Shown here one piece after another: positions 20,836-58,157 of a stretch of 64,000 bases of DNA; positions within the stretch are counted from its first letter, which is position 1, and the number at the start of each line of letters is the position of its first letter. Both the position numbers and the translations under genes were made by a program. This stretch comes from Limanda limanda. Lineage: Eukaryota; Chordata; Actinopteri; Pleuronectiformes; Pleuronectidae. The stretch lies in contig NC_083647.1 in NCBI RefSeq assembly GCF_963576545.1, forward strand, positions 5,127,507 to 5,191,506, given 5' to 3'. The notes under the pieces were generated by a model. The model was not told the origin of the DNA, ran no database searches, and saw only the letters and a program-made list of their open reading frames with translations.

Positions 20836-23098
20836 TGTTGGGCCTACCAGGGACAAAGAGGCCACAGACCTGAGGCCTTGTGTGACATTCCAATCCATGT
20901 TACAGTATTCTGGAGGGAAAAGGGTGAAGCCCCCAAACTACAGTGACCCCTGCTGTGTCTCAGATTTGATCTCTGACCCCATTGGCCTGAGACCTTTAGC
21001 CCCGCCGGAGGGGGGGAGCCAGTTCACAGATACTATTTAACTTCAGACTCATCTCAAATCTTTCTTTCCGGTTCCAGATACAGTAGAGCTAGCATCTCAG
21101 TTTAGTTCTTAGTGTAGAGGACACAAAGGAAACACATCTTGCAGCTGTTTGACCTTTCTTAAGTTTTACTTCTAAAACTTATCTTTTTGTAGTTCACTTT
21201 TAGTCTAAAGCTACCTTTTTCTAATCCAGTTTAAGCTTAACTTCTTTTTTAGTACATCGTAAGCTTATTTTTCCTTAAAGCTTTTAATTTGAATAAGCTT
21301 CTTTTTAAGTTGCTTTTATTTTGAAGAGAGCGCGACAGAGAATCCCCTCACTCGCTGGCCAAATCAGAGACATTTCCCCCGCCATCTACGGACAATCCGG
21401 ACACAGGTGTCCCTTCCTGCAGACGGGCACAGACTTTGCCACGGAGAACGAGAAGCATCCTCTCCGAATTCGGCCCGGCGTCATCTCATCGCCGCCTCCG
21501 CGGCTCCGTGATCATCGCTCTGAGGCCAGGAAATCATCCACTTCCTCCTTCCGGAATTCGCGCTACCACGGTCGTGCACGAAACCCCGCGAAGCAACACG
21601 AAGTAAGAGACATATGTCTGGGCATAGTTTAGTTTTATACTTGGTGTGTCTTATTTGAGTGTAAATTGATAGAAAGACCGCCGTGTCGATCTTATTGTGA
21701 AAAGCGCGCGGTGACGACCCGGCGCTTCCGGTTGGATTCGGCTCCCTTCAGGTCGGCCTCACTGAGTCGTGAATCTGTTAAAAGGACACCTCTCACGTAA
21801 CTGGTTTGCCGGTTTCACTGTGAGATCGCCTCTGACGGCGTTTTTAAGATCATCTCCGATCTGTGTTACTACTTGTGCTCTCTCTGTTGTTCTCTCACAT
21901 CCGCCGACACACACATCCTCGCACACACACACACACACAGTCACCTTATACCTAGCCATTCTGATACCCAGAGCCCCTGAACGCACCTCGACGCCGTTAG
22001 GCTCTAGAGCTAAACAAAGACAAAGAACCCCATTTTTCCTCTCTCAGCCTTTGTCTCACGAGTGTTTAAGTCGGCCATCTTTGACCATCTTGGCTCTAAG
22101 CCCTCGACGCCATTCGGCTAAAGCTAAGCTAAGATAAAGAATCCCTTTGTTCTCACTCAGCCTTTGTCTCACGTGGGTTCAAGTCGGCCATCTTTGATCA
22201 GTCTGATTCTAAGCCACATGGTCCGGCGGCCATCGACTGTAATAAACATCGAGGCCTGCCTCATTCAGGACTCTAAACTTCTTAGGCGACTCCGATATCT
22301 TGAGTTGTAGTTCTGGCGTATGACATCACCAATTTTGTAGTCAACCCCCAGGGTTAAGCCGGCCCTCTTAAGACTCGTGAGTCATCGACACACACACACA
22401 CTCACACTCACACTCACACATACACATACAAACACAGCTTTATCAGAAGTATTGCAGTGTGATATATTGTGATGAATGTGATGTGGCTGTATAGCGGATT
22501 GTGTTAAGTGAAGAATCATTTTGAACAACATTGACTTTTATAGCTTTTTAATAAATCCTCTTTTATACTTAAAGTATTTGGATCTTGTGATTATTTGTGC
22601 ATGACATTGTGAACACAGTTGGATAACTATAGCCAGTGCTCGAACTCAAGCCTGACTAAGTTGTTGGTCCCTGTTTACCAGGGTGGTGCCCTCTTCGAGT
22701 ATTAATATAGATAGTATTATTCTTAAATTGATAATTTTATTGTTTTGACTTATTTCATTATTCTTGGTTGATCACCTTAACATTGTTAATTGATAGCTTG
22801 TACTTTCTAATTGATAATTACTTGTTTTTCATTAATAGTTGTTATTCGTTGATTGATTATTCTTAAGTTTTTCATTGATTATTTAATTAATTGATAAACT
22901 TTATTCTCAAATTAATTTAATAATTCTTAATTGTTAAACTTCCTTATTTACTCATTAATAGTTTTATTGTTATTTGATTACTGATCATCAATTAATAATC
23001 TAATTATTTTTAGATAAAAAATCTTTATTGTTTCAATAATCATATTCCATGATTATTGATAATTAGCCAACATCGAGTCACCCTTCTATTGCACAACA
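20836..23098 (+). repeat. 5' LTR of the provirus (2263 bp)
   Basis: The LTR runs from TGTTGGGCC to TTGCACAACA. A TATA-like TACTATTTAAC lies near 21032, and possible poly(A) signals (AATAAA) lie near 22240 and 22551. A GC-rich block at about 21330-21620 contains a 103-codon open frame that is not preserved in the 3' LTR. CA repeats occur at 21925 and 22390. The last 400 bp are very AT-rich with many TTGATTATT-like words. At over 2 kb it is long for a gypsy-type LTR. Confidence 0.9.
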
Positions 23099-23746
23099 TA
23101 ATTGGTGCCCCCTGTGAGGCTCTTATTCCAACTGTGTCATAATATCTATGTACAATAATCCAACTTGATTTTTCAATAAATTGATTTTTCAACAAATTAG
23201 ATTTTTCAACAAATTTGATTTTTCAACAAATTTGATTTTTCAACAAATTTAATTTTTCAAAAAATTTAATTTTTCAAAAATTTAATTTTTCAATAATTTA
23301 ATTTGCGATAAATTTATTATATTTTTTTAATTTAATTTTTTTTTCCTTTTCCGAAATCTTAAATTGATTATAATAGATTGTTAAGAAAGATAATTTTAGA
23401 ATTTTTTTTTTTTTTTTTTTTTCTTTTCAAAATTTTATTTTTGATTCCCTTACACCTTTGCCAAGCAAGTATAGTAGGGCTGTGCGTAACTGTGGTTGGT
23501 TGCTGACTGCATTTTCAGTTGTTAGTAACTTTGGAGATTTTCTGCATGTTATTTTGATTTTTAGATTAGTTGTTACTTTCTAGGTCTAGAGGATTGAGCC
23601 GCCGAGCTATCCTGCCTAAAGTTACGCGATAGACACAGGTTAGAGCTCACCTGTGTTTCTGATCGTATAGTGCAACTTAAGTGTGTTACCCGCTGACATC
23701 CCAGCGTGTTTAAGTAATCCACTGATTGTCTTATAATACTTAGACA
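23099..23746 (+). promoter_or_regulatory. Proviral leader with primer-binding site and minisatellite
   Basis: Four bases after the LTR lies TGGTGCCCCCTGTGAGGC (23103-23120), a primer-binding site candidate because it starts with TGG, complementary to a tRNA CCA end. I could not assign the tRNA with confidence. At 23164-23310 a degenerate unit of about 17 bp (TTTTTCAACAAATTTGA) is repeated about eight times. A T-rich run follows at 23402-23422. The leader ends at the gag ATG at 23747. Confidence 0.65.
23164..23310 (+). repeat. Minisatellite in the proviral leader
   Basis: This is a tandem array of a unit close to TTTTTCAACAAATTTGA, with AA/CA variants and progressive shortening towards the 3' end. 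It is present only between the primer-binding site and gag, not in the LTRs. Confidence 0.75.
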
Positions 23747-25795
23747 ATGAGTAACCCCAGGCCAAACGACCTGCTGCAATTGGTCGGAGACCTGGCAAAT
23801 CTGTCAATTGATGACGTGAGTGAGTTCAGTGGGTACGATGTCAGTGCCTGCGATGACAAGATACAGGAAATAGTCACGTTCATTGAAGACCCCCAAGGCG
23901 CCCAACGCTCAATATCCCAACTTCTGGCCCAACTGACCATCCTGTATGACCGCCGATCCCAGCTGAAAGCCAAAGAACACTCTGACGCAATCAGCGCCAT
24001 GGAAGCAGTATGTCAGGCAGAGCAAGATGAAAAGTCCCAGTTGCAAGAGATAAGATCCTGTTTACAAAAGGAAGTTGATAGGGCTCATGAAAAATGGAAC
24101 AAGACACGGCAGGAGTGCGAGAGTCTGCGCGAGCAGATGAAACGTCAGAGTGAACAAGAGGCAAGAGACACAGGAAACGGTGTGTGGCCCCCTGGACTGG
24201 AAACAAGGTCAAGAATTGACAGCTCTTCCGGAGAAGCCAGTGAAATGGAAACACCTGAAGAGCAACTGCAAGTACGTCCACGCCAACGTCAGGTGGCCGT
24301 AACTGATTCACCCTGGCTTATCAACAACGATCGGAGATCCACCCCGGCCAACGCGAGGACGGAGCCAGCAGAAACGTCTAGGAGTACAGTGACGTTTGAT
24401 CTTCAGGCAACACCGAACACCCGTCCAGCGGACGGTGGGAATCCACTCACCTTAGGAAAAGCCCCCCCTGCACGAAACTTACCTGCTCCATATCAGGACG
24501 ACGGAAGAATGCCGCCCTGGATGGCTGAAGGAAATTCACAATCAGGGAGGAACCAGGCTAACAACCGTTCTCCGCCCACCACGCCGGCGGCTGCACGATC
24601 TGGTTCATGGTCACGTCCGGAGTGGCCCATCAATCCTAATGCACGCCAAGAAGATGAGTACTATGACCAGCACCAGGGGGGACATGACTCAGACGACTCT
24701 GAGCACCAAGAAGCACCAGTGGTACAGGGAATTCGCACCCGACAGATCGAGTCCCTGTCCAAATACATCGATCGGTTCGATCCCGACGTCCGAGGGTCCA
24801 ACGTGGACGATTACCTTCGTGAGGTAGAACGCTGCCTCTTGGACATAACCAACCCCTCAACCAGAGAAAAGCTGAAGCTAGTCTGGAAGACGACAGCCAG
24901 AAACGTCCATGCCTTCATGGAAACTCTGTCACATAGGGTCAGAGACAATTATTACGACCTATGTCAGGCCCTGCGCGAAGAGTACTCACTCTTCACCGAC
25001 CAGGCCTCTGCAACCCTTGGCGCCTTTGCGGTCCTGCAGAGGAAGAATGAACCTCCGAGGGAGTATTACAGACGTCTGAGAACGGCGTACTTCCAAGGGC
25101 GTAACGCCCCCGGGCTGGAAGATGACATGGCCTTCAAATCCCTGTTCCTGCACAATCTCCACGATAGTGTACGATATGATGTTACCATGTACTGCAGAGC
25201 TGGTAACCACTCAATGCAAGAGATGAGGAGGTACTCTCAACTAGCCTGGGAGACGCGAACACGCCCGCACAAAGGTCAAGAACAGGACGCCAGGGTTCTG
25301 GGGATCCAAGCTACACCCCACATGGATCTGGCGCTGGAGGGTAACGAGATACCCCTGGCCAAAACGCATCCCAGGAGAGAGGATCGTGAACGTCGACCCG
25401 ACGCCAGAAGAAACCAAGAAAGGGAGGGATCAAACCAGCCTCGCAACCAGAGGTCACAGTACCTAACAACCTCTCAACAGAGAGGCAGGGATTGGGCTGA
25501 GCGAGGACCCCACCAACGCCACGAAAAGAAATATGATAACATATCCCAAACAAGGGAGGCCACAGGAACATGGGAGGAAACAGGAACCATGGAACCCACA
25601 AGAACATGGGAAGAAACAGGAACCCTGGAATCCACAGGAGAACTGGAAGAAACCAGAACATGGGAGGAGACAGGGACCTATGAATCAACAGGAACGCTGG
25701 AACCAACAGGAGCTCCCCTCACAAATGCATCCACAAATGGAAAATTTAATACGCCGATGGGTGTCAGAGGCAGTAAGGAACCAAGATGCCCCTAA
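23747..25795 (+). CDS. gag: gag, capsid polyprotein (682 codons)
   Basis: This is the structural protein of the provirus. Residues about 1-135 are rich in charged heptads (for example RSQLKAKEHSDAISAM), suggesting a coiled coil for assembly. A disordered, Pro/Arg/Gln-rich linker follows. Residues about 350-510 resemble the retrotransposon gag fold (DYLREVERCLLDI, LCQALREEYS, YYRRLRTAYFQG, LHDSVRYDVTMYCRAGNHS). No CCHC zinc knuckle is present; an Arg-rich tail may bind RNA instead. The last 80 residues are short repeats around TWEETGT and ESTG. The frame that reaches the pol junction is a different one, open from 25467 to the TGA at 25854, so a single-base indel within 25467-25795 probably separates this gag end from the original. 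The start ATG is the first after the leader. Confidence 0.8.
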   Translation: MSNPRPNDLLQLVGDLANLSIDDVSEFSGYDVSACDDKIQEIVTFIEDPQGAQRSISQLLAQLTILYDRRSQLKAKEHSDAISAMEAVCQAEQDEKSQLQEIRSCLQKEVDRAHEKWNKTRQECESLREQMKRQSEQEARDTGNGVWPPGLETRSRIDSSSGEASEMETPEEQLQVRPRQRQVAVTDSPWLINNDRRSTPANARTEPAETSRSTVTFDLQATPNTRPADGGNPLTLGKAPPARNLPAPYQDDGRMPPWMAEGNSQSGRNQANNRSPPTTPAAARSGSWSRPEWPINPNARQEDEYYDQHQGGHDSDDSEHQEAPVVQGIRTRQIESLSKYIDRFDPDVRGSNVDDYLREVERCLLDITNPSTREKLKLVWKTTARNVHAFMETLSHRVRDNYYDLCQALREEYSLFTDQASATLGAFAVLQRKNEPPREYYRRLRTAYFQGRNAPGLEDDMAFKSLFLHNLHDSVRYDVTMYCRAGNHSMQEMRRYSQLAWETRTRPHKGQEQDARVLGIQATPHMDLALEGNEIPLAKTHPRREDRERRPDARRNQEREGSNQPRNQRSQYLTTSQQRGRDWAERGPHQRHEKKYDNISQTREATGTWEETGTMEPTRTWEETGTLESTGELEETRTWEETGTYESTGTLEPTGAPLTNASTNGKFNTPMGVRGSKEPRCP

Positions 25796-25865
25796 TAGCC
25801 CCACTGCACCTTCGGGCCCTCCGAAGAATCCAGACGGTGGTCCACCCTCAATGTGACTAGAACAG
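25467..25865 (+). promoter_or_regulatory. gag-pol junction with TGA-CTAG stop context
   Basis: The alternative frame is open from 25467 and encodes Gln/Pro-rich repeats (KQEPWNPQEHG), then a plausible gag C-terminus (MENLIRRWVSEAVRNQ). It ends in TGA at 25854-25856, followed directly by CTAG. Pol is in the same frame right after this stop, with no early ATG. UGA-CUAG is an established leaky stop context in animal and viral genes, so pol may be made by stop-codon readthrough. This is inferred, since gag itself now enters from another frame. Confidence 0.55.
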
Positions 25866-27635
25866 GTGTCCGCCATCCCCACCTCCAGAGTGTACTTTGT
25901 AGGCTGGGGAAACTCAAGCACCACTAGACCACATCCCGAAATCTTCACCACAGACACTGCTCCCTTCTTAACTTTCCTGGGCGACCTTGTCCGGAAAGGC
26001 AACGCACAACGCATCTACACCTCAGTAGTAATAGGACGCTGCTTCAGCTCCCTGGCTCTACTTGATTCAGGCTCGGAGATCAGCCTGATGTGTGCCAACA
26101 CTTTCTCCCAAGTTGAAACGACCATGTTATCTCTTGGAAAACCCCTGCAAATTGAAACCTGCAACATCAATATCACCAGCTACACTCAGGACCAGTCACC
26201 CATCACAAAGCGTGCCTGGATCGATATCACCTTCCAAGAGATGAGTCTAGCACATCCCATCTACATCTGCTCCATCGACACAGAACCACTGCTCATCGGT
26301 CAGGACCTGCTGGATCGATTAGCCCCGCTCATCGACTGTCACCAGGGACGCATTTGGGCTCAAGTCGATAACCCAAAACCTCTCGAGCCTAATGTCAGTC
26401 CTCCCATTCAAGTCGCTGCTATCCAGACACCCAGCAGAACATCCCCGATGCACATGCCTCTTCCAGAGACGGACTCCAGCTCGGATCCCATCAGGACCAC
26501 GGCAAGTGGGCCTGTGCCACGACATGAGTCAGAGAACACTTTCCAAAAACACAATTCATTCCTATGTTCCCTAGACAATGAGAACCCGTCATTGTACGTT
26601 CCCCGCATCAAAGAAGATGTTTTCCTAAATGGCATCCTGTCTTCCAAAACCCTAGTCGCCCTCTGGTCCGAAAAATCCGCAATCAGTATGGAAACGTACA
26701 CTGATTTGTGCAAACTGGAACTTCCACCTCTCTTTGTGCGACGCTGCCACCGACTTCTCTCAGCAGAGATACCACAGACCCCTATCAAAGCGACTGGAGT
26801 GTGCGCTATCTCCGTGCGAATCGGAAAACGGCAGATCTGGCATTTCGTGAGCGTTGTTCCTCAACTTCCCTCCTCATTCCTGGTAGGAGCAGATCTCCTC
26901 ATCAGACTCGGAACACAAGTGGACACCATAAACCAGGTTTTGTGGTCACAAGTCAACACAGAGAGACACTGCCTGTCCACCGACCCAGCCCAGATGCTCT
27001 CTGGACAAACGATTCCCCAAGCCTGCCAGGTCGCCAGTGAGGTTGACATGGTCATTCCTCCACGAACCGCCGGGGCCCCTATCCGACTTGAAATCCTCAA
27101 GGGACAAAGGTTGCTGGGTCCGCAGGCCTTCTTCCAACCGCTGCCCTCCTTCCAGGAACTCGACCTGGCAGTCTGTGGCACGCCGCTGCTGGAAGTGAAC
27201 CACCGAACGACGCATGTGCTCGTGAGAAACCCCACGCACTGCCCCGTTCAATTGAAGGCACATCAAGTAATAGGAATGTTGATTGACAGCTCATTCCACG
27301 ATTTCGAACTAACAATACCGGTCATTGGGGAACTTCCCCCCTCTCTAGCCAAAGACGACGCTGTGGATCAAGTCCTTCACACATTCCCAACCAACATGAT
27401 CACGGTCATGTGTCATGAGTCACTGCAAGACGAAGCCATTTGTGGAGCCTCTCTGACGACAGAAGGGGACATGATGGTTTATGCTCTAACAACTCAACCA
27501 GGGCAGGACTCCTCAGGGGATGCACAGACGGAAGAACTATATCCCGGGTTCGAGGCTGAGATCGAACAACAACTGGAGAAAGCAGATGCCCTGACAACAG
27601 ACGCACAGAAAAGTGCTTCGGGATCTGTTCCTTGA
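25857..27635 (+). pseudogene. pol: pol N-terminal part: protease plus a second protease-like domain
   Basis: Counting residues from 25866, 45-160 form a retropepsin: ALLDSGSEISLM with the catalytic Asp at residue 67 (26064-26066), and the closing LLIGQDLLDRL. Residues about 245-360 repeat the layout: LNGILSSKTLVALWSEKSAIS in the active-site position, then FLVGADLLIRLGTQVD. The Asp is replaced by Trp (residue 267) and Gly by Glu, so the second domain should be inactive on its own. It might be the partner half of a fused dimer. A region of unknown function follows up to the frame break at 27613-27635, where RT continues in another frame. The segment has no ATG near its start, in line with expression as a gag-pol fusion. 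Confidence 0.75.
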
Positions 27636-28557
27636 CTTCCAGCCAATCTTCTCCAAAGACTCTACGGATTGTGGGGTCACTGACCTTCACACTGTGCGCA
27701 TCCCCACGGATCCAAACGCACTACCAACCTTCGTACGTCAGTACAAAATGCCATTGGCAGCTTACGAGTCCATTCAAGACATCCTCGACACCTTGTTAGA
27801 GAAACGGATAATCAGGGAATGTAATTCAACTTACAATTCACCCATTTGGCCGGTGCTAAAACCAACCGGAAAATGGCATCTCACCATCGATTACCGTCCC
27901 CTGAACAAGCAAGTCCCCCTGTCCCGCTGGCCCATGATTCACCTGGATCAAGAGCTAGCCAAAGTAAAAGGAGCCACGTTCTTCTCCACCGTAGACGTGG
28001 CAAATGGATTCTGGACTATGAAGGTAGACCAAGCTGACCAATACAAACTGGCTTTCTCTTTAGGAGGTAGCCAGTATACCTGGAACCGCTGTCCATTCAG
28101 ATATTCAAACTCTCCATCCGAATTCAACATCTTTCTCCACAAAGCAATGAGTGACGCCGCAACACGTGGAAATCTCATTTATGTGGATGACATCCTCATG
28201 AGGAGCCAAACCTTTGAGGACCACATAATTGAAATCCGACATGTGCTCAAGCAACTGTCCAACGCAGAAGCTAAGCTGGCTCTCACCAAAGGCCAGTGGT
28301 GTCGCACCAAGGTGAAATATGTTGGTCTGACAGTCGGAGCTGATGGCATCGAACCCCAAGCAGGGCGGATACAAGCCATCAAGGACATCAAGGCCCCCAG
28401 GCGCCTAACCGAACTCAGAAGTTTCCTCGGGGTCTGTAACTACTCACGCCAGTTCATTGAAGACTACGCAGAGATAGCCAGACCTCTCACCGAACTCCTG
28501 CGTAAAGATAAGCCCTTCAAATGGGGAGAACCCAAGAACAATCTTTCCGTCAGATGA
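27613..28557 (+). pseudogene. pol: pol reverse transcriptase
   Basis: This is the RNA-dependent DNA polymerase of the provirus. Visible motifs are WPVLKPTGKWHLTIDYRPLN (fingers), FFSTVDVANGFW (motif A, catalytic Asp), RCPFRYSNSPSEFN (motif B) and LIYVDDILM (catalytic YVDD at 28180-28191), then VKYVGLTVGADGI and LRSFLGVCNYSRQFI of the thumb. YVDD is the retrovirus-like form of the box. The frame differs by one from the protease part upstream and again from the RNase H part downstream (28521 onward), so two indels bracket it. Confidence 0.9.
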
Positions 28558-28850
28558 AAGAAAAACTCTGCTCGGCATCCTGTCTGGCCTACCCAGACAA
28601 AGACAAAGAGTTCCATCTCGAAGCGAGCTTCTCCTCCCACTGTCTCAGTGCGGCCCTGGCACAGAAGTACGACACCGACAAACGGGTCGTTGCCTACGCC
28701 AGTCGACCCCTTAGCGGTGTGGAAATCAAATTCTCCGACTGTGAGAAAGCCCTCCTGTCCACAGTCTGGGCTGTAGAACACTTCCGCAGCTACATCGGAG
28801 GACAGAAGGTCAGAGGACAGAAGGCCAGAGGCTGAGAGGACAGGTCACAA
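28521..28850 (+). pseudogene. pol: pol first RNase H-like domain (degraded)
   Basis: The usual gypsy RNase H position after RT holds FHLEASFSSHCLSAALAQ, VVAYASRPLSG and DCEKALLSTVWAVEHFRSYI. The Asp expected before AS is Glu, and the segment carrying the third acidic residue is missing at about 28800-28826, where GGACAGAAGG is duplicated. The frame then changes, and RGQVTNSRIATWMMALQGYD continues. The domain has probably lost catalysis and acts as a connector, like the tether of vertebrate retroviral RT. Deletion damage in this copy cannot be separated from ancestral loss. Confidence 0.65.
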
Positions 28851-31015
28851 ACAGCCGTATAGCCACATGGATGATGGCACTCCAAGGCTACGACATCGAA
28901 GTGAAGTACGCTCAGAACAACAAGATGGCCCTGGGAAAAGGATTGGCGGAGTGCCACCATTGTGATGAAGATGAACGATCAGACCCCATCTCTCTCCCAA
29001 CAACCACTCCATCACTGCCTTCCAACCACCGCTATTATGAAGAAAACGTCTGCGAAGATCTTCCCAAGGTATATGTTGATGGCTGCTAGTTCCACCACGA
29101 GAGCCAGCTCCGGGCAGGAGTTGGCATTGCCTGGGTCAACTACAGCAGCAGCGAACCAACTCACTACAACCTAGGACCCAAGACCAGCCAGTACGCAGAG
29201 ATCGCTGCTATACTCATCGTCCTTCAACAAGCAGTCAAGCTGGCCATAACGCAGTTGGTGATCTGTTCAGATTCAAACTATGCCCGTCACAGTTTCATCT
29301 CCCATTTTCCTTTATGGAAGGAAAAAGGAATGAAAAATGCCAGGAACAAGGAAGTCAAGCACTCAGAACTCTTACTGACCTGTGATCAACTGGTAACCGA
29401 CCAAGGGCTGATAGTTTACTGGAAGAAAGTCAAAGGCCACTCCCAACTTGCTGGACCAGACAAAGACGGCAACGACGAAGCAGACAGACTAGCCAAGCTA
29501 GGAGCAGACAAAGGCGTGCACTGGGAACTACAGGGCGATGGACTTCAAAGTCCCCAAAACTGCGTAGTGAACGCGATCACCCGACGACAGGCAAGGGAGC
29601 GACAAGAGAACCCCCAAGCCTGCGACCAGATCCTGCATCTGGGTCGTAAACCCGAAGACACAGACTTGGTTGCCATGCAGGAACAGGATCCCGTCATCAG
29701 TGCCATCCGCCAGATAGTCGCGACACCTCCCCTGCAAAACTCGCAACCATTTACTGACCAACCCAAGGAGATACGAGCATATCAAACGGCTCTACCCCAC
29801 CTAAAGATGGAAAAGGATCTGCTCGTCTACACCCGTAATGGCCAAGGACCAAACCGGTGGGTCGTTCCGACCGACCATAGGGGGGTAATGCTGTCCCACG
29901 CTCACGATTCCCTTGTCGGTGGCCATAGAGGTTACAAGGCTACTCTAAATACCCTCCAGCAAGTCGGGTACTGGCCATCAATGGCCAGTGACACCCAATC
30001 TTACGTCCGAGGGTGCCTTACCTGTTGCCAGTTCCAACCGTCATCACCACTGAATCGCGCCCCACTTCAAGGAAGGGGGGTATCATTTCCATGGTCTCAC
30101 CTTCAGATCGACTGGATTGGACCGGTTCCAACGTCATCACGACGTAACAAGTACCTGCTCACCGTTACTTGTGCCTTCACCAAATGGGTGGAATGTCTCC
30201 CAGCATCCAACGACACAGCCGTCACCACAGCAGTCCTACTGCTAAATCACGTGTTCAGCCGCTGGGGCCTACCACTCTCCATTGATTCGGACCGGGGAAC
30301 CCATTTCACATCCCACGTCATGACCTCCCTCTGCGACATACTTGGAGTTGAAGTCAAATTCCACATCTCCCATCATCCCCAATCGTCAAGCCAAGTGGAA
30401 TGTGCCAACCGGACCATTATCCACATGCTGAAGAAGTACGTAGGAAGCAATGGAAAGGACTGGGACGTAAAACTTCCCCTGGTGCTGATGGCGATCAGGT
30501 CCACCCCGCACCGCTCCACAGGTGTCACCCCCTTTGAGATGATGACAGGTAGACAAATGACTCTTCCCCTGCATCTGCTGTATCATGCTGAAGACCTCAG
30601 CGTCATGACCGCATACACTGCACATCAATACGTGGCAGAGCTACGTGACCATCTGAAGACGACCTTTGCACTGGCACAAGAAACTCTGGAGGCCAGTGTG
30701 AAAGCTTCAAAAGCATACTATGACCGGAAAACCTCCCACCGTGAATACGAAGTGGGTGACAAGGTTTTCTACTTCAAGTTCATAAAACCAGTGGGGGTCT
30801 CCAAGAAATTCCTCCCCAGCTGGATAGGTCCCTTTGAGGTTGTGGGGAAACTCTCACCGGTAGCATACCGAATCAGGATCCCGAAACAGAGAAGACCCCC
30901 CACATACAAATGGGTCCACTCAAACCAAATCAAGCCATATCAACCTTCCCCAATCTCTTTGGATCCTCGGCATATTCCTCAGTCCCAAAATGGTTCAACC
31001 GGTTCAGGTGGTTGA
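28850..31015 (+). pseudogene. pol: pol second RNase H plus integrase
   Basis: After the connector, a second RNase H begins at VYVDG (about 29073). It keeps all four acidic positions: Asp in VDG, Glu in YAEIAA, Asp in ICSDSNYA and Asp in [10 protein letters not shown], with HSQLAG before the last. A TAG at 29087-29089, just after VDGC, breaks it. Integrase follows: an HHCC zinc-binding region ([12 protein letters not shown] to CLTCCQF), catalytic Asp 30110-30112, Asp 30290-30292 (SDRGTHF) and Glu 30398-30400 (SQVECANR). The last two are 35 residues apart, the DD35E spacing. A GPY/F-like end ([18 protein letters not shown]) completes it. No chromodomain is visible. Confidence 0.85.
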
Positions 31016-32735
31016 GCAAGGCCCGCCAACCGGGATTGTTCTCCAAAACACACCTGGCCTCCTCATCACGCGTTGCTGACTTTACACTCAAAGAGTCTAC
31101 GTCCGACTGGACCCCTGGGATGTGTATAGACATCACATCCGTAACCCCCCACAGCCGACTGAGGGGAGGTTAAGTGCGATCCAAACGCATGATACAGTGG
31201 GACATGCCAAGCAGACCACTAGGCATATGCTCGAGCAACTGCAAAAGTTGTTGGTCACTGAGAAAGACCTCAGTAACCAAAAGAGACCAAAAAGGTTCCT
31301 CGGGGCCCTAGTCCTTGCCGCGTCCGCTATCGGGTCACTGTTCTCTATTGGCCTATCAGCAGCCAACTCAATCAGCATCGGTGCGCTCCAAAGACATATG
31401 AGTGAACTAGACGACGAAATGCCAGAAATCCAACAGAGACTTAACCTCCAACAAAACCAGTTACAGGACCTGGGAAAAACACTCCAGGGCACTGTACTGG
31501 CTGTCAACCTCCATTCTGCTCTCCTAAACAATACCCTGCATGCCTTAGACACTGTCAATTATCGTGAGGGACGATATAACGTATGTTCAAGTAGTTAAAG
31601 ACTTAATGCAGGACCTTAAGAGAAGTTAGTTCCACTGTCAACAGCTTAAGTGCCGGTAGGATCCCCACCTATCTAGTGTCTTTAGATCTTGTTGAAATAA
31701 TCTTGCAGTCAGCTACCACTACGATCGTGCAGCCCTCTCAGGTACACCTGGCATTTAGTCTTGGCAGCGCAATCCCTATATCAGTTGATCCACAGAACCT
31801 CGAAATAGGATTCATTGTCAACCTACCTATCATTGAACAACAGAACGTGTACCACCTAAAGACCGTTCTCAATGTAGGATTCTGGCAGGGAAACACACAT
31901 GTTAACCTTAAAACACCACCATTACTCGCCTACCATGACGAAAACCCCTCGCTCTCTCATCCCAAATTTAAGTTTGTGCACGAAAACGAAGGACATACAT
32001 TGGATTTGTCCTAGCACCCCCTTTATCAGGGATGTTACTAATTACCTCTGTGGTGTGCGAGTCAATGCTCCAGAACAAAAGTGCCAAGGCAGCATGTCCA
32101 CCAGAAGTGAGGAAACCCCTACAAGAGTAGAGCGAGCTGGTGACAAATGGTTGGTTAACACACCCGCCACTGAAGCCATAATGGCCTATGACCGTCATGA
32201 TTCATCCACTAAACTAAGGCTGTTAAACCAGACGATGTTCTTGGTGGTTCCTCAAGGAGCCACTGTACATATTGGTGACATTGTCCTCCATCACCTCAAC
32301 TCCGACAGACACGACGCGGAGATTGAGATCATGTACGCCTTTCAGGGTCACAACCTTACGATTGACACAACCATCCGACAACAGCTTATAGCTGAAGGAA
32401 CTAAAGAGGTAAAGTTCAACGTTAGGTCAACTGGACTTACCACCGAATTTGGTAAAAACTTTCATCGGATGTCAACAATTACAGAACATCCCATTAGCAT
32501 GATCGCGCTGGGACTGCTCCTTAGTGGATGGGTTATTACGATAGGTGTGGCTTTCCTTCTGCACCGATACATTCAGAAACTCCAAACGAAATTGGACTCA
32601 CTCCTTTTCGTTCCGCTAAGAAAGCTCTCCGGTCTACCCAAGACATCCCACTTGTCTAAGAAAGTTTCTTTCTATCTCTTTTGCGCCGCTTTTCCTTTCC
32701 TTTCTTTTCATTTCACCTTTCGTATCTATTCATAG
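30910..32735 (+). pseudogene. env: env, fusion-type envelope glycoprotein, broken
   Basis: The first frame opens at 30910, overlapping the pol end as retroviral env genes often do. The frame changes near the C-run at 31142-31148, again after the stop at 31596-31598, and again near 31980. Landmarks in order are a short N-terminal part of about 125 residues, a furin-type site RPKR (31284-31295), a hydrophobic Gly/Ala-rich fusion-peptide-like segment right after it, Leu-rich helical sequence, N-glycosylation sites, a Cys cluster near 31975-32090, and a membrane segment near 32495-32570 with a basic cytoplasmic tail. A small subunit before the cleavage site and a long one after it resemble the F-type envelopes of errantiviruses more than typical retroviral SU/TM. 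No signal peptide is obvious. The breaks make this copy non-functional. Confidence 0.75.
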
Positions 32736-33035
32736 GTATGTTACAATTACTGCCGATAACATTGTGTGAAACTGAAATTGTGTGCTGTGTTTTAGAAATA
32801 GTCTCTCTGCCTAGATTATGCCTCTGTCTGCCCAGACATCACTGTCTCACTCTGTCAAGGTTATGCTTCCGTCTGCCCAGACATATATGCTCTCTCTCTG
32901 CCAAGGACACATCGCATGTAAAATGAACTGACTTTCACTGTTCCCACTTCACTCAAGGATTATCACATGGATTATAATTGGACTGTAGACCCTTGTTTGC
33001 TCTGAAAACCGCGATCAACGTCCCACTCTCCAGAC

Positions 33036-33046
33036 CAAAGGGGGGA
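33036..33046 (+). promoter_or_regulatory. Polypurine tract of the provirus
   Basis: The purine run AAAGGGGGGA ends at the 3' LTR start (TGTTGGG at 33047), the expected position for plus-strand priming. A homologous CCAGACCAAAG lies at 2410-2420 in the decayed relative. Confidence 0.8.
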
Positions 33047-36037
33047 TGTTGGGCCTACCAGGGACAAAGAGGCCACAGACCTGAGGCCTTGTGTGACATT
33101 CCAATCCATGTTACAGTATTCTGGAGGGAAAAGGGTGAAGCCCCCAAACTACAGTGACCCCTGCTGTGTCTCTAGCCGCGCCTCAGATTTGATCTCTGAC
33201 CCCCCTATTGGCCTGAGACCTTTAGCCCCGCCGGAGGGGGGGAGCCAGTTCACAGATACTATTTAACTTCAGACTCATCTCAAATCTTTCTTTCCGGTTC
33301 CAGATACAGTAGAGCTAGCATCTCAGTTTAGTTAGTGTAGAGGACACAAAGGAAACACATCTTGCAGCTGTTTGACCTTTCTTAAGTTTTACTTCTAAAA
33401 CTTATCTTTTTGTAGTTCACTTTTAGTCTAAAGCTACCTTTTTCTAATCCAGTTTAAGCTTAACTTCTTTTTTAGTACATCGTAAGCTTATTTTTCCTTA
33501 AAGCTTTTAATTTGAATAAGCTTCTTTTTAAGTTGCTTTTATTTTGAAGAGAGCGCGGCAGAGAATCCCCTCACTCGCTGGCCGAGCTCAGAGACATTTC
33601 CCCCGCCATCTACGGACAATCCGGACACAGGTGTCCCTTCCTGCAGACGGGCACAGACTTTGCCACGGAGAACGAGAAGCATCCTCTCCGAATTCGGCCC
33701 GGCGTCATCTCATCGCCACCTCCGCGATCATCGCTCTGAGGCCAGGAAATCATCCACTTCCTCCTTCCGGAATTCGCGCTACCACGGTCGTGCACGAAAC
33801 CCCGCGAAGCAACACGAAGTAAGAGACATATGTCTGGGCATAGTTTAGTTTTATACTTAGTGTGTCTTATTTGAGTGTAAATTGATAGAAAGACCGCCGT
33901 GTCGATCTTATTGTGAAAAGCGCGCGGTGACGACCCGGCGCTTCCGGTTTGATTCGGCTCCCTTCAGGTCGGCCTCACTGAGTCGTGAATCTGTTAAAAG
34001 GACACCTCTCACGTAACTGGTTTGCCGGTTTCACTGTGAGATCGCCTCTGACGGCGTTAAGATCATCTCCGATCTGTGTTACTACTTGTTCTCTCTCTCT
34101 CTCTCTGTTGTTCTCTCACATCCGCCGACACACACATCCTCGCACACACACACACACAGTCACCTTATACCTAGCCATTCCGATACCCAGAGCCCCTGAA
34201 CGCACCTCGACGCCGTTCGGCTCTAGAGCTAAACAAAGACAAAGAACCCCATTTTTCCTCTCTCAGCCTTTGTCTCACGAGTGTTTAAGTCGGCCATCTT
34301 TGACCATCTTGGCTCTAAGCCCTCGACGCCATTCGGCTAAAGCTAAGCTAAGATAAAGAATCCCTTTGTTCTCACTCAGCCTTTGTCTCACGTGGGTTCA
34401 AGTCGGCCATCTTTGATCAGTCTGATTCTAAGCCACATGGTCCGGCGGGCATCGACTGTAATAAATATCGAGGCCTGCCTCCATTGAGGACTGTTGCGGG
34501 TGGAAATCAAAGGCAGGAGGCGTCGTTCTCAAGTTCAAATTAAGCAGGTTTATTCAGAGGTCACAGGTCAGGAAACTGCGGTGTCTAGCAAATGATCATG
34601 CATGGTCCACTGATCCTGTACAGGAAAAAATGGCGGTGAGGCAGAGTACGCAGAAAGCTTATATATTGATACTGGGCATGACAGATTTTCTTCTTGGATT
34701 GGGATTGGTCGGATCTCGTCGGGTCGTCCTCCTGGCGTCGTTTGGTCCTCCTCCTGGCGTTGCGTGATGACGTGCAAGCCGTGTTGCGGTTACTAAAGTT
34801 CATGAGCATATTGCCTCGCGTGTGCGCTTATTTTATGTGTGTGTGAAGTGAAGTGAGGTCATAGAAAACTGTGAGAAAGGCATGAAAACCTCTAGTATAA
34901 TCTGTCCGCTGTGTGTGTGTGAGGGAGTCTCAGAACTAATATAATGAAGTGATTCATGAAGCCAGAGGTTTGAAAACCTGTTATCTGTCCGCTATGCCAG
35001 ACTCCCTTTTTAAGGAGTATGAAACATTCTGAGGTTGAGAAGCAGGAGAAGAACTATGTGTTATGTTTGTGTGTTTACGCTATGTGTATCTGACTACACG
35101 TTAAAGTGTGTGTGAACAGTGCTGTATTGTCAACAGGACTCTAAACTTCTTAGGCGACTCCGCTATCTTGAGTTGTAGTTCTGGCGTATGACATCACCAA
35201 TTTTGTAGTCAACCCCCAGGGTTAAGCCGGCCCTCTTAAGACTCGTGAGTCATCGACCCCCCTTCTTCCTCTCTCACACACACACACACACACATACAAA
35301 CACAGCTTTATCAGAAGTATTGCAGTGTGATATATTGTGATGAATGTGATGTGGCTGTATTGTGTAAAGTGAAGAATCATTTTGAACAACATTGACTTTT
35401 ATAGCTTCTTTTTAATAAATCCTCTTTTATACTTAAAGTATTTGGATCTTGTGATTATTTGTTCATGACATTGTGAACACAGTTGGATAACTATAGCCAG
35501 TGCTCGAACTCAAGCCTTCACTGTTAATTATATAATCCTTATTATCAATTTAACTTTATCAGATGAGACTGATATTTATAGATTAAGTTGTTGGTCCCTG
35601 TTTACCAGGGTGGTGCCCTCTTCGAGTATTAATATAGATAGTATTATTCTTAAATTGATAATTTTATTGTTTTGACTAATTATTTCATTATTCTTGGTTG
35701 ATAACCTTAACATTGTTAATTGATAGCTTGTACTTTCTAATTGATAATTACTTGTTTTTCATTAATAGTTGTTATTCGTTGATTGATTATTCTTAAGTTT
35801 TTCATTGATTATTTAATTCTTTGATAAACTTTATTATTCTCAAATTAATGATTTAATAATTCTTAATTGTTAAACTTCCTTATTTACTCATTAATAGTTT
35901 TATTGTTATTTGATTACTGATCATCTTCAATTAATAATCTAATTATTTTTAGATAAATAATCTTTATTGTTTCAATAATCATATTCCATGATTATTGATA
36001 ATTAGCCAACATCGAGTCACCCTTCTATTGCACAACA
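33047..36037 (+). repeat. 3' LTR of the provirus, with nested solo LTR
   Basis: It matches the 5' LTR along its length, with small indels: an extra CTAGCCGCGC near 33173, a missing block near 33722, and an extra stretch of about 60 bp near 35520. It carries a 644-bp insertion at 34492-35135, which accounts for most of the difference in length (2991 versus 2263 bp). Confidence 0.9.
34492..35135 (-). mobile_element. Solo LTR nested in the 3' LTR
   Basis: The insertion starts TGTTGCGGG and ends GTCAACA and is flanked by GGAC on both sides (34488-34491 and 35136-35139). The 5' LTR has the empty site with a single GGAC at 22268-22271. Read on the minus strand it has a TATA box (CAATATATAAG, plus-strand position about 34658) and an AATAAA signal (34549-34554), the layout of a retroviral LTR. 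It belongs to a different family from the host provirus. Confidence 0.85.
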
Positions 36038-36041
36038 TCGC

Positions 36042-56180: not shown

Positions 56181-56609
56181 TGTCACGGTAAGTGGAGGGA
56201 GAGATGGACCCAGGATGCAGAGGTTATAGATAAAAGGTAATTTTATAATACAAAAGTCTTTTACAAAGACAAAAACAAAACAGGAACACAAACAGATAAC
56301 TACTGGCGACAAGGCGCACTGAGAACATTGAAAGAAGCTGGACGAGGCAGCAGACAAGACTAACCGTTAGGACGACGTGTAGAAACAAGTACAACCCGAC
56401 AGAGGACAAGGGGAAACACAGAAGCTTAAATACAGAGGAGGAAGGCAGGGGCAATGAGACACAGGTGAAACCCATGAGGACAGAGGAGGATAATCACCAA
56501 CAGGAAGCGAAGACAGAGACAACACACAAGAAACACCAGACTACAAAATAAAACAGGAAACAGAAAAACCAGAGACAGAAATAACAAACTAAAATGACAG
56601 AACATCACA
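56181..56609 (-). repeat. 3' LTR of the minus-strand element
   Basis: Plus-strand ends are TGTCACGG and AACATCACA. Read on the minus strand, it has the same order of words as the LTRs at 6783 and 37323, including GGGTCCATCTC at its 3' end. Confidence 0.75.
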
Positions 56610-56629
56610 GTACACAGTACACCGAGACG

Positions 56630-57826
56630 GGAGGGAGAATGGGGGAACCGGAGGAGGGACTCTGGGACGTGTCTGGCAGAGTTCTGAGGCTCAGGAGGAG
56701 GGCACCGTGGCCGCTCCGGGACAGAGTTCTGTGGCTCAGAAGGACGGCGCCTAGGCCGCACAGGGACAGAGTTCCGAAGCTCTGGAGGACGACACCGCGC
56801 CGGCACTGGGACAGAGTTCTGAGGCTCCTCAGGCGGGCGGCCCGAAGACCGGTCAGGAGCGGAGGGCAAGGGCTCCGACCTGAGCCCCGGGCGAGGGGCA
56901 GGAACTGGTGCTGGCTCCGCGAGGACCTCAGCCGCCGGAACCAGGCGGTCCGCCGGGATCCTCCGGCGTGAGGCAGGGACTGGAGCGGGGACAGGAGCAG
57001 GGACAGGAGCTGACACCACGAAGAGCCCTGATGCCTGAGGAGTCGGGACGTCAGCCGGAACAGGTGAGGACCTCTGCCGCCCGAAGAGGGGAGACGTCGG
57101 CCAGGACCGGAGCAGGGACTGAAGCTGGCACCGCGAAGAACCCTGATGCCTGAGGAATCGGGACGTCCACCGGAAGCCTCCGACGTGGAGCAGGAACCGG
57201 GGCTGGAACCGGAGCAGGCAAAGCGAGGACCTCTGACGTCAGCAGAAGGGATACGTCAGCCTGGAGCCTCGGATGCGGGACAGGAACCGAAGCAGGTGTA
57301 GCGAGGACCTCTGACGTCAGCGGACCGGGGACGACAGATGGGAATCTCCGGCGCGGAGCTGGAACCGGAGCAGGCGAAGCGAGGACCTCTGACGTCTGAG
57401 CCCGCTGCTGGAGAGAGAGGCTTCCGCTGTGGATTACCCCTCTCCAACGACCGCAACCTGCCGCAGGATACCACTTGAGGTTGCAGGGTCCCCAAAAGGT
57501 GCCTGCAAGCTGGGCTTGGAGACGCAGGGGCACTGCTCCCACATCTGCCAACAACCGCAGAACTCAACTGCAGGGGCCAGGCAGGTTCCCTCAAACGGGT
57601 TAGAGAAGGGGACTGCAGTGCTGCACAACCTCCTCAGCTTCTCCTGCACCTCCGGGAGATATGGCACGGTGTGGCTCACCCAGGGGTAATCCTGAAGCCA
57701 GGCCTCCATCTCCACGATGTCCTCCATGGTCTGGGCAATGTCTGGGCCTCCGTCCTCCAGCTCATACACCAACCAATCAAAATAATAAACTTTTTCAAAA
57801 AATAAATTAACCTCTGCTGGGTCCAT
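56630..57826 (-). pseudogene. gag-like protein with Pro-rich repeats
   Basis: The ORF starts at MDPAEVNLFFEKVYYFDWLV (ATG at 57826 on the minus strand), then YELEDGGPDIAQTMEDIVEM and a helical, Trp-rich segment to about residue 70. Downstream, in shifted frames, are tandem repeats around SEVLASPAPVPAPRRRFPS (about 57380-57150) and then around RPRRRPSEPQNSVP (about 56860-56660). Two frame changes (near 57440-57550 and 57020-57050) break it. The N-terminal part resembles short gag-like proteins scattered through fish genomes. It has no zinc finger or enzymatic domain. Confidence 0.55.
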
Positions 57827-57843
57827 GATTTGGTCGGGTTGTT

Positions 57844-58018
57844 CTGTCAAGGTAAGTTGAGGGAGAGATGGACCCAGGATGCAGAGGTTATAAATAAAAC
57901 GTAATTTAATAATGCAAAAGTCTTTTACAAAGACAAAAACAAAACAGGAACACAAACAGATAACTACTGGCAACAAGGCGCACTGAGAACATTGAAAGAA
58001 GCTGGACCAGACAGCAGA
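57844..58018 (-). repeat. Truncated 5' LTR of the minus-strand element
   Basis: It matches 56181-56358 from TGTCA.GGTAAG through GAAGCTGGAC.AG.CAGCAGAC, then stops where the next element begins. Confidence 0.75.
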
Positions 58019-58157
58019 CTTTTCTTCTTCAGGCTCTCTCCGATGGCGGTCGCATTTTCTCTCCCTCTCCTCCCCATGACCTTCCCTGCTTTGCTTCTTC
58101 GTCTTGTCTTGTCTTGTCTACTTGAGAGACTCTCTCCGCACCGCTCTACGAACTAAA

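Follow-up and report, generated by a model that had tools for sequence, protein, structure and literature searches.

The retroelement analysed here encodes a retropepsin followed, in the same open reading frame (ORF), by a second copy of the domain that has lost its catalytic aspartate. It lies in a 64,000-nucleotide stretch of the 717-Mb genome of Limanda limanda (GCF_963576545.1, contig NC_083647.1, positions 5,127,507 to 5,191,506), hereafter the window; all coordinates are window positions on the forward (+) strand. The two domains, which we call PR1 and PR2, belong to a 589-residue ORF (25866-27635) that starts pol and also carries a third domain, D3. A retropepsin accompanied by a second copy without catalytic Asp is a real and widespread feature of a lokiretrovirus-like clade. 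We consider it probable that the pair stems from an old duplication of the retropepsin in lokiretrovirus-like pol, and that PR2 is a conserved structural pseudoprotease, serving most likely as a dimerisation or regulatory partner.

PR1 occupies residues about 45-168 (25998-26369), with LLDSGSEISLM at residues 65-75 (26058-26090) and LLIGQDLLDRL towards its end (residues 142-152; 26289-26321). PR2 covers residues about 243-372 (26592-26981), with LVALWSEKSAIS at residues 263-274 (26652-26687) and FLVGADLLIRL towards its end (residues 338-348; 26877-26909). Between them lies a linker (26370-26591), mostly predicted to be disordered, with a predicted local distance difference test score (pLDDT) <50 at model residues 138-182. 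An earlier interpretation of the window, made from its letters and hereafter called the sequence-only reading, had quoted these motifs, and all of them were found in the ORF, starting at residues 65, 142, 263 and 338. The spacing that it gave as exactly 200 residues is actually 198 between the starts of the first motif pair and 196 between those of the second.

Compared directly within the window, the PR1 and PR2 blocks align at 26% identity over 122 residues (E 3.2e-7). This is the cleaner test of homology, because the sequences used in the profile tests had been gathered by an iterated hidden Markov model (HMM) that had already merged the two domains. In these tests, the PR1 profile matched the PR2 profile with 98.5% probability (E 1.6e-15). 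A profile built from 26 PR1 sequences recovered 44/44 PR2 sequences at E<=1e-3 and 0/880 shuffled PR2 sequences at E<=0.1, and the PR2 profile recovered 26/26 PR1 sequences and 0/520 shuffled ones. Structure prediction gives PR1 a retropepsin fold of the DDI1 and retroviral type, and PR2 alone is also predicted to fold as a retropepsin. Foldseek searches, in which the top chains were aligned and the best 50 rows considered, returned retropepsins and no dUTPase among these rows for PR2 alone. The existence of tandem retropepsin folds in pol is thus upheld, the homology by alignments and profiles and the folds by prediction; the possibility that the second block would fail to fold as a retropepsin did not materialise.

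The catalytic triplet of PR1, Asp67-Ser-Gly, is encoded at 26064-26072. Both HMM and profile-profile alignments place Ala265-Leu-Trp (26658-26666) at the corresponding site of PR2, where the Asp-Ser/Thr-Gly has been lost. The common alignment sets LL-DSG-SEIS of PR1 against LV-ALW-SEKS of PR2, with the Ser-Glu after the triplet kept. The change from Asp-Ser-Gly to Trp-Ser-Glu proposed by the sequence-only reading was rejected as being in the wrong register, since two aligners put Ala-Leu-Trp there, with the following Ser/Ala-Glu/Asp in register. We sorted 127 domain instances by score into 61 PR1 and 66 PR2, that is 137 rows minus 10 of other retroelements; the rows behind the triplet counts include near-identical copies and gene models. 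All three triplet columns could be read in 36/61 PR1 rows, and Asp was present in 36/36 (25 DTG or DSG, 8 DTA, and one each of DSR, DTS and DLG). Among PR2 rows, 57/66 were readable at the triplet; Asp occurs in 3/57 and ALW in 43/57, and Ser/Ala-Glu/Asp follows the triplet in most PR2 rows. With Asp absent from 54/57 readable PR2 rows, the claim that the second block lacks the catalytic residue was correct.

The three PR2 rows that have Asp are all of a frog type (DLK, DLK and DLR), and a fourth, P0146 (DLK), was found later. Within this Asp-Leu-Lys/Arg type, P0076, P0104 and P0146 are from frogs, and P0079 groups with P0076. The stretch between PR1 and PR2 in frog-type elements differs from the fish linker. 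The frog motif, in which Asp is kept and Gly is lost, is a possible intermediate state. P0082, whose single domain (DLG) adjoins D3, scored as PR1 and is placed beside the PR2 branch; counted as PR2, it would bring the number of rows with Asp to 4/58.

Relatives were collected by searches that gave 26 homologues of the ORF (7992 candidates scored), 175 of the reverse transcriptase (RT; 120 listed) and 5 with a frog query, three of these sequences being new. From the resulting set of 145 proteins we removed the window ORF and 40 proteins judged to be outgroups, although 11 of the 40 have protease and RT hits. Among the others, 62 pol proteins have both protease and RT hits, and one of these, P0028, is the window genome's own copy. 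Two protease domains precede the RT in 42/62; in 29 of these, both hits begin close to the profile start, and D3 is present in 41 of the 42. The remaining 20/62 have one protease domain: 12 have PR2 only, 7 have PR1 only, and one is P0082. Several PR2-only proteins start inside or just before PR2. D3 is also missing from 6/7 PR1-only proteins (P0016, which has a partial RT hit, P0037, P0055, P0061, P0063 and P0069), the pattern being broken by P0144, with D3 and no PR2, and by the PR2-only P0091, without D3. PR2 and D3 are thus mostly present or absent together, which suggests that they form one functional cassette. The expectation that related elements share the second block holds for most of those examined and fails for a minority that lacks PR2.

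Hosts named among the RT matches listed include fish, lamprey and frogs. A rapidly built RT tree (71 rows) places the frog type outside the fish and lamprey rows, the position of lamprey not being firmly supported. The Nothobranchius rows, which have a single protease, are nested inside fish rows bearing PR2, which points to a loss or replacement in that lineage. The single protease of Nothobranchius sits on a branch of its own and is perhaps a protease replacement. A protease tree was computed from 86 rows, after removal of 19 proteins and of short rows. The simplest way to read these data, which we favour without considering it settled, is that the duplication happened once, before the fish and frog types diverged.

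PR2 is conserved about as well as PR1. Over 17 complete proteins (136 pairs), mean identity is 42.4% for PR1, 40.1% for PR2, 46.5% for D3, 69.0% for RT and 24.0% for the linker. We compared copies of the element within the genome, namely eight near copies (L001-L008, L001 being the window copy) and older copies. The ratio of nonsynonymous to synonymous rates (dN/dS) of PR2 between L002 and older copies is 0.25 (L009, 131 codons) and 0.32 (L011, 120 codons); the other parts give 1.10 for the linker (L009, 52 codons), 0.20 and 0.16 for D3, and 0.49 for PR1 (L012, 66 codons). Comparison of L001 with L009 points in the same direction, with 13 synonymous changes over 99 sites and 12 nonsynonymous over 294 in PR2, and 5 over 36 and 14 over 120, respectively, in the linker. 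Among the eight near copies, synonymous to nonsynonymous changes number 14:10 in PR2, 6:3 in PR1, 3:3 in the linker and 6:8 in D3; the binomial P for PR2 is 0.0006, or 0.004 under a lower neutral expectation, and the same test is not significant for the linker and D3. Conservation of the second block in related fish elements under purifying selection, which the sequence-only reading had named as a check, is supported both by an identity near that of PR1 and by these dN/dS values.

We infer from these observations that PR2 is kept as a structural pseudoprotease. Under the mechanism that we propose, a retropepsin in pol would have undergone an old tandem duplication. PR1 retains its catalytic Asp and would act as the working protease in the form of a PR1:PR1 dimer, as expected from what is known of the family and from its Asp-Ser-Gly. 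PR2 retains the predicted fold but has exchanged Asp-Ser/Thr-Gly for a conserved Ala-Leu-Trp, because of which it cannot supply a catalytic Asp. It would still pack against a partner, either PR1 or, where Pol dimerises, another PR2, and would thereby hold Pol together or control the timing of PR1 dimerisation and cutting. The catalytic triplet of retropepsins lies at the centre of the dimer, and packing on a partner appears most likely because the residues at this position have turned hydrophobic and not polar. A conserved Ala-Leu-Trp, where an exposed site would be expected to turn polar, suggests a buried interface.

A bolder proposal, which we advance tentatively as a possibility with the odds against it, is that the PR2 active site was rebuilt from Asp-Thr-Gly through a frog-like Asp-Leu-Lys to the Ala-Leu-Trp of fish. 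The result would be a permanent interface with PR1 or with PR2 itself that times the protease, making the tandem a covalent pair of a catalyst and a pseudoenzyme.

Several observations weigh against our interpretation. Many of the rows drawn from databases represent gene models or damaged copies, and they are not independent of one another. A single protease, with neither PR2 nor D3, is found in lamprey P0061, in Nothobranchius P0055, P0063 and P0069, and in Hypomesus P0037, which have 77-174 residues between protease and RT; because of these five elements, PR2 is evidently not needed by every relative. In the protease tree, the 45 PR2 rows fall to one side of a branch whose support (97/78) does not reach the starred level. 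PR1 is not a single group there: at a weak fork, its two frog rows go to the PR2 side, as does the lamprey protease. When the near copies are restricted to five (L001-L005, leaving out L006-L008), PR2 changes amount to 10:10 by codon, one of them a stop, which is a weaker signal. Furthermore, a stop codon stands in place of the Trp of the PR2 motif ALW in all of L005-L008. These four copies differ from one another by 1 to 10 of 1743 bases, come from contigs no longer than about 1 Mb and have stops in common; the stop at the Trp is one inherited change, and the group may be defective or may represent one locus duplicated together with its surroundings. The predicted single-chain model does not pack PR1 on PR2 in the manner of pepsin lobes, although the two may pair nonetheless. 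Finally, we infer the dimerisation step from the nature of the residues and from general knowledge of retropepsins.

PR2 might instead be retained passively, as a folded spacer between PR1 and D3 or RT that binds nothing and is kept since an unfolded domain would harm the polyprotein. The need to fold would by itself also produce the low PR2 dN/dS of 0.25-0.32, and PR2 together with D3 may be one dispensable cassette, given the five elements that do without both. We nevertheless regard this explanation as unlikely: ALW is conserved in 43/57 rows and in most rows followed by Ser/Ala-Glu/Asp, and a mere spacer would gain nothing by preserving a Trp where the active site used to be.

We find it decidedly more doubtful that PR1 is paired covalently and asymmetrically with PR2, in an intramolecular heterodimer that would be either inactive, as a built-in brake, or active with one Asp. 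The tandem layout resembles that of two-lobed pepsins, and Foldseek aligns the tandem model along single-chain human immunodeficiency virus (HIV) protease, plasmepsins and renin over >320 columns. The root-mean-square deviation (rmsd) of these alignments is about 16-22 Å, which means that the model arranges the lobes otherwise than pepsin does, and the linker is disordered and poorly conserved. Against the tethered HIV protease dimer, the single-chain tandem model gives 16.9 Å over 333 columns. The dimer of active and inactive halves envisaged by the sequence-only reading is thus not what the model displays, even if pairing would still be feasible. We know of no precedent for an active retropepsin with one Asp.

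That PR2 is a decaying relic, drifting after loss of its function, is very improbable; loss of Asp, absence of PR2 from some elements and the stop at the Trp of ALW in L005-L008 would fit such decay, and they are opposed by a conservation equal to that of PR1, a low dN/dS and a new motif conserved in many fish elements. We rejected, as having negligible probability, the idea that a dUTPase has been taken for a protease in PR2: the same naming error was made before (PMC4531489, in its available part) and the fold search with the whole model does return dUTPases, but the best 50 rows for PR2 alone contain retropepsins without any dUTPase, and D3 is the most likely source of the dUTPase rows.

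D3 (26994-27365; HMM boundaries at residues 379-494) probably has a dUTPase-like fold. Stand-alone viral dUTPases match the whole model with E 1.9e-3 to 2.0e-2, in a listing that does not give the aligned range within the model; these rows probably come from D3. No Pfam dUTPase match was obtained for D3 at E<=1, and inspection by eye recognised none of the five conserved catalytic dUTPase motifs. A third copy of the protease was also considered for D3 and rejected, its profile matching those of PR1 and PR2 with a probability of only 0.1%; P0073 and P0075 were left out of this test, as their D3 and PR2 hits overlap and they look like chimeric gene models. Judging from the profiles, D3 is unrelated to the protease.

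The element was described by the sequence-only reading as a fish gypsy-like element. Its pol is lokiretrovirus-like and not that of an ordinary fish gypsy, an assignment based on domain content and hosts. Lokiretroviruses (lokiorterviruses; Wang and Han) share with it a Pol that combines RT and integrase with two RNase H domains, one of them tether-like. Their Env is related to Mononegavirales fusion glycoproteins; the env-like ORF of our element has a weak match to a paramyxovirus fusion protein that stays under the cut-off. The dual RNase H (tether plus new RNase H), a lokiretrovirus trait, is present in the window, where the first RNase H is tether-like by Pfam match. The hosts reported in the available part of PMC9040795 (fish, lamprey and amphibians) agree with those of our matches. 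That same part describes one protease, unlike here, and mentions no inactive second protease or dUTPase-like domain. Zebrafish Bhikhari families are relatives of the lokiretrovirus clade, according to the accessible text of PMC10996621.

Retropepsins are single domains that dimerise. PR1 and PR2 share the fold of DDI1 and retroviral retropepsins, and PR1 keeps their Asp-Ser/Thr-Gly, whereas PR2 is without the catalytic Asp and is fused behind PR1. Pepsins contain tandem duplicated retropepsin-like lobes in one chain, both giving an Asp and packed together. The duplication in one chain is common to both systems, but the second half here gives no Asp and the model lacks the lobe packing. The retroviral 'pseudoproteases' of older literature proved to be dUTPases (PMC4531489, available part). 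They have in common with our system the name and a probable dUTPase-like domain in the same ORF; they differ in that PR2 has a retropepsin fold and the dUTPase-like fold is most likely that of D3. The bovine immunodeficiency virus (BIV) dUTPase-related protein is a pol domain without detectable catalysis that is needed for replication, as stated in the portions available of PMC4531489 and PMC4261571; it differs from PR2 in fold and position. Searches of the open-access literature found no description of such a second, inactive retropepsin in a retroelement pol.

In the window, the element consists of a gag ORF, pol and an env-like ORF between two long terminal repeats (LTRs), which are direct repeats at approximately 20836-23099 (5′) and 33047-36038 (3′) and match each other in three blocks of 93-96% identity. 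The 589-residue ORF, P0001 in our set, was assigned to no Pfam family, and a profile of the first 27 proteins matched six sequences of the PDB, all polymerase chains. Downstream lie the RT (27613-28557, RVT_1 E 2.5e-22), which is in another frame in this copy, the tether-like RNase H (28521-28835, RT_RNaseH_2 E 2.8e-28), and the end part of the second RNase H with the integrase (29255-31015; Pfam RNase_H, E 4.7e-12, Integrase_H2C2 and rve). Both RNase H domains are found within one protein in the relative P0029. The env-like ORF (31122-31598) matches Fusion_gly, the paramyxovirus fusion glycoprotein family, with E 0.0021 and 16.9 bits, under the 29.8 cut-off; no member of the homologue alignment has this match.

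Pol is broken over several frames in the window copy, with gag and pol out of frame (23747-31015), and other copies in the same genome are less broken. A TGA at 25854-25856 stands just before the pol frame, in a context (ATG TGA CTA GAA) identical in 8/8 copies (L001-L008), and TGA-CTAG is a leaky stop context. Because the pol frame of L003 and L004 is open for >1.4 kb on the gag side, up to this TGA, the sequences suggest that Gag-Pol may be made by stop-codon readthrough. The RNA that follows the gag stop has no notable structure (z -1.07). Just past the segment of the 5′ LTR that matches the 3′ LTR lies an AT-rich tandem array with a period of ~17 bases (23152-23336). The last part of the internal region (32695-33040) resembles 2109-2421, near the window start, at 82-84%. 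Elsewhere in the window, 56181-58019 is GC-rich and strand-skewed and contains several internal repeats, including a pair of 175-base copies at 95%.

On present evidence, this is a retroelement pol that conserves a second, inactive retropepsin; the mechanism is put forward as a proposal. Retropepsin activity is controlled by dimerisation, and how viruses time it is a long-standing question. A clade in which a conserved dead copy sits beside a live one constitutes a natural experiment on protease control, in which frogs show a possible intermediate, the replacement motif is fixed in fish, and some lineages are without PR2 and D3. The arrangement resembles the duplication step thought to precede two-lobed pepsins, with the second half turned non-catalytic. 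If it is true that the dead half binds the live one, PR2 would be a naturally occurring, genetically encoded means of regulating a protease of the retroviral type.
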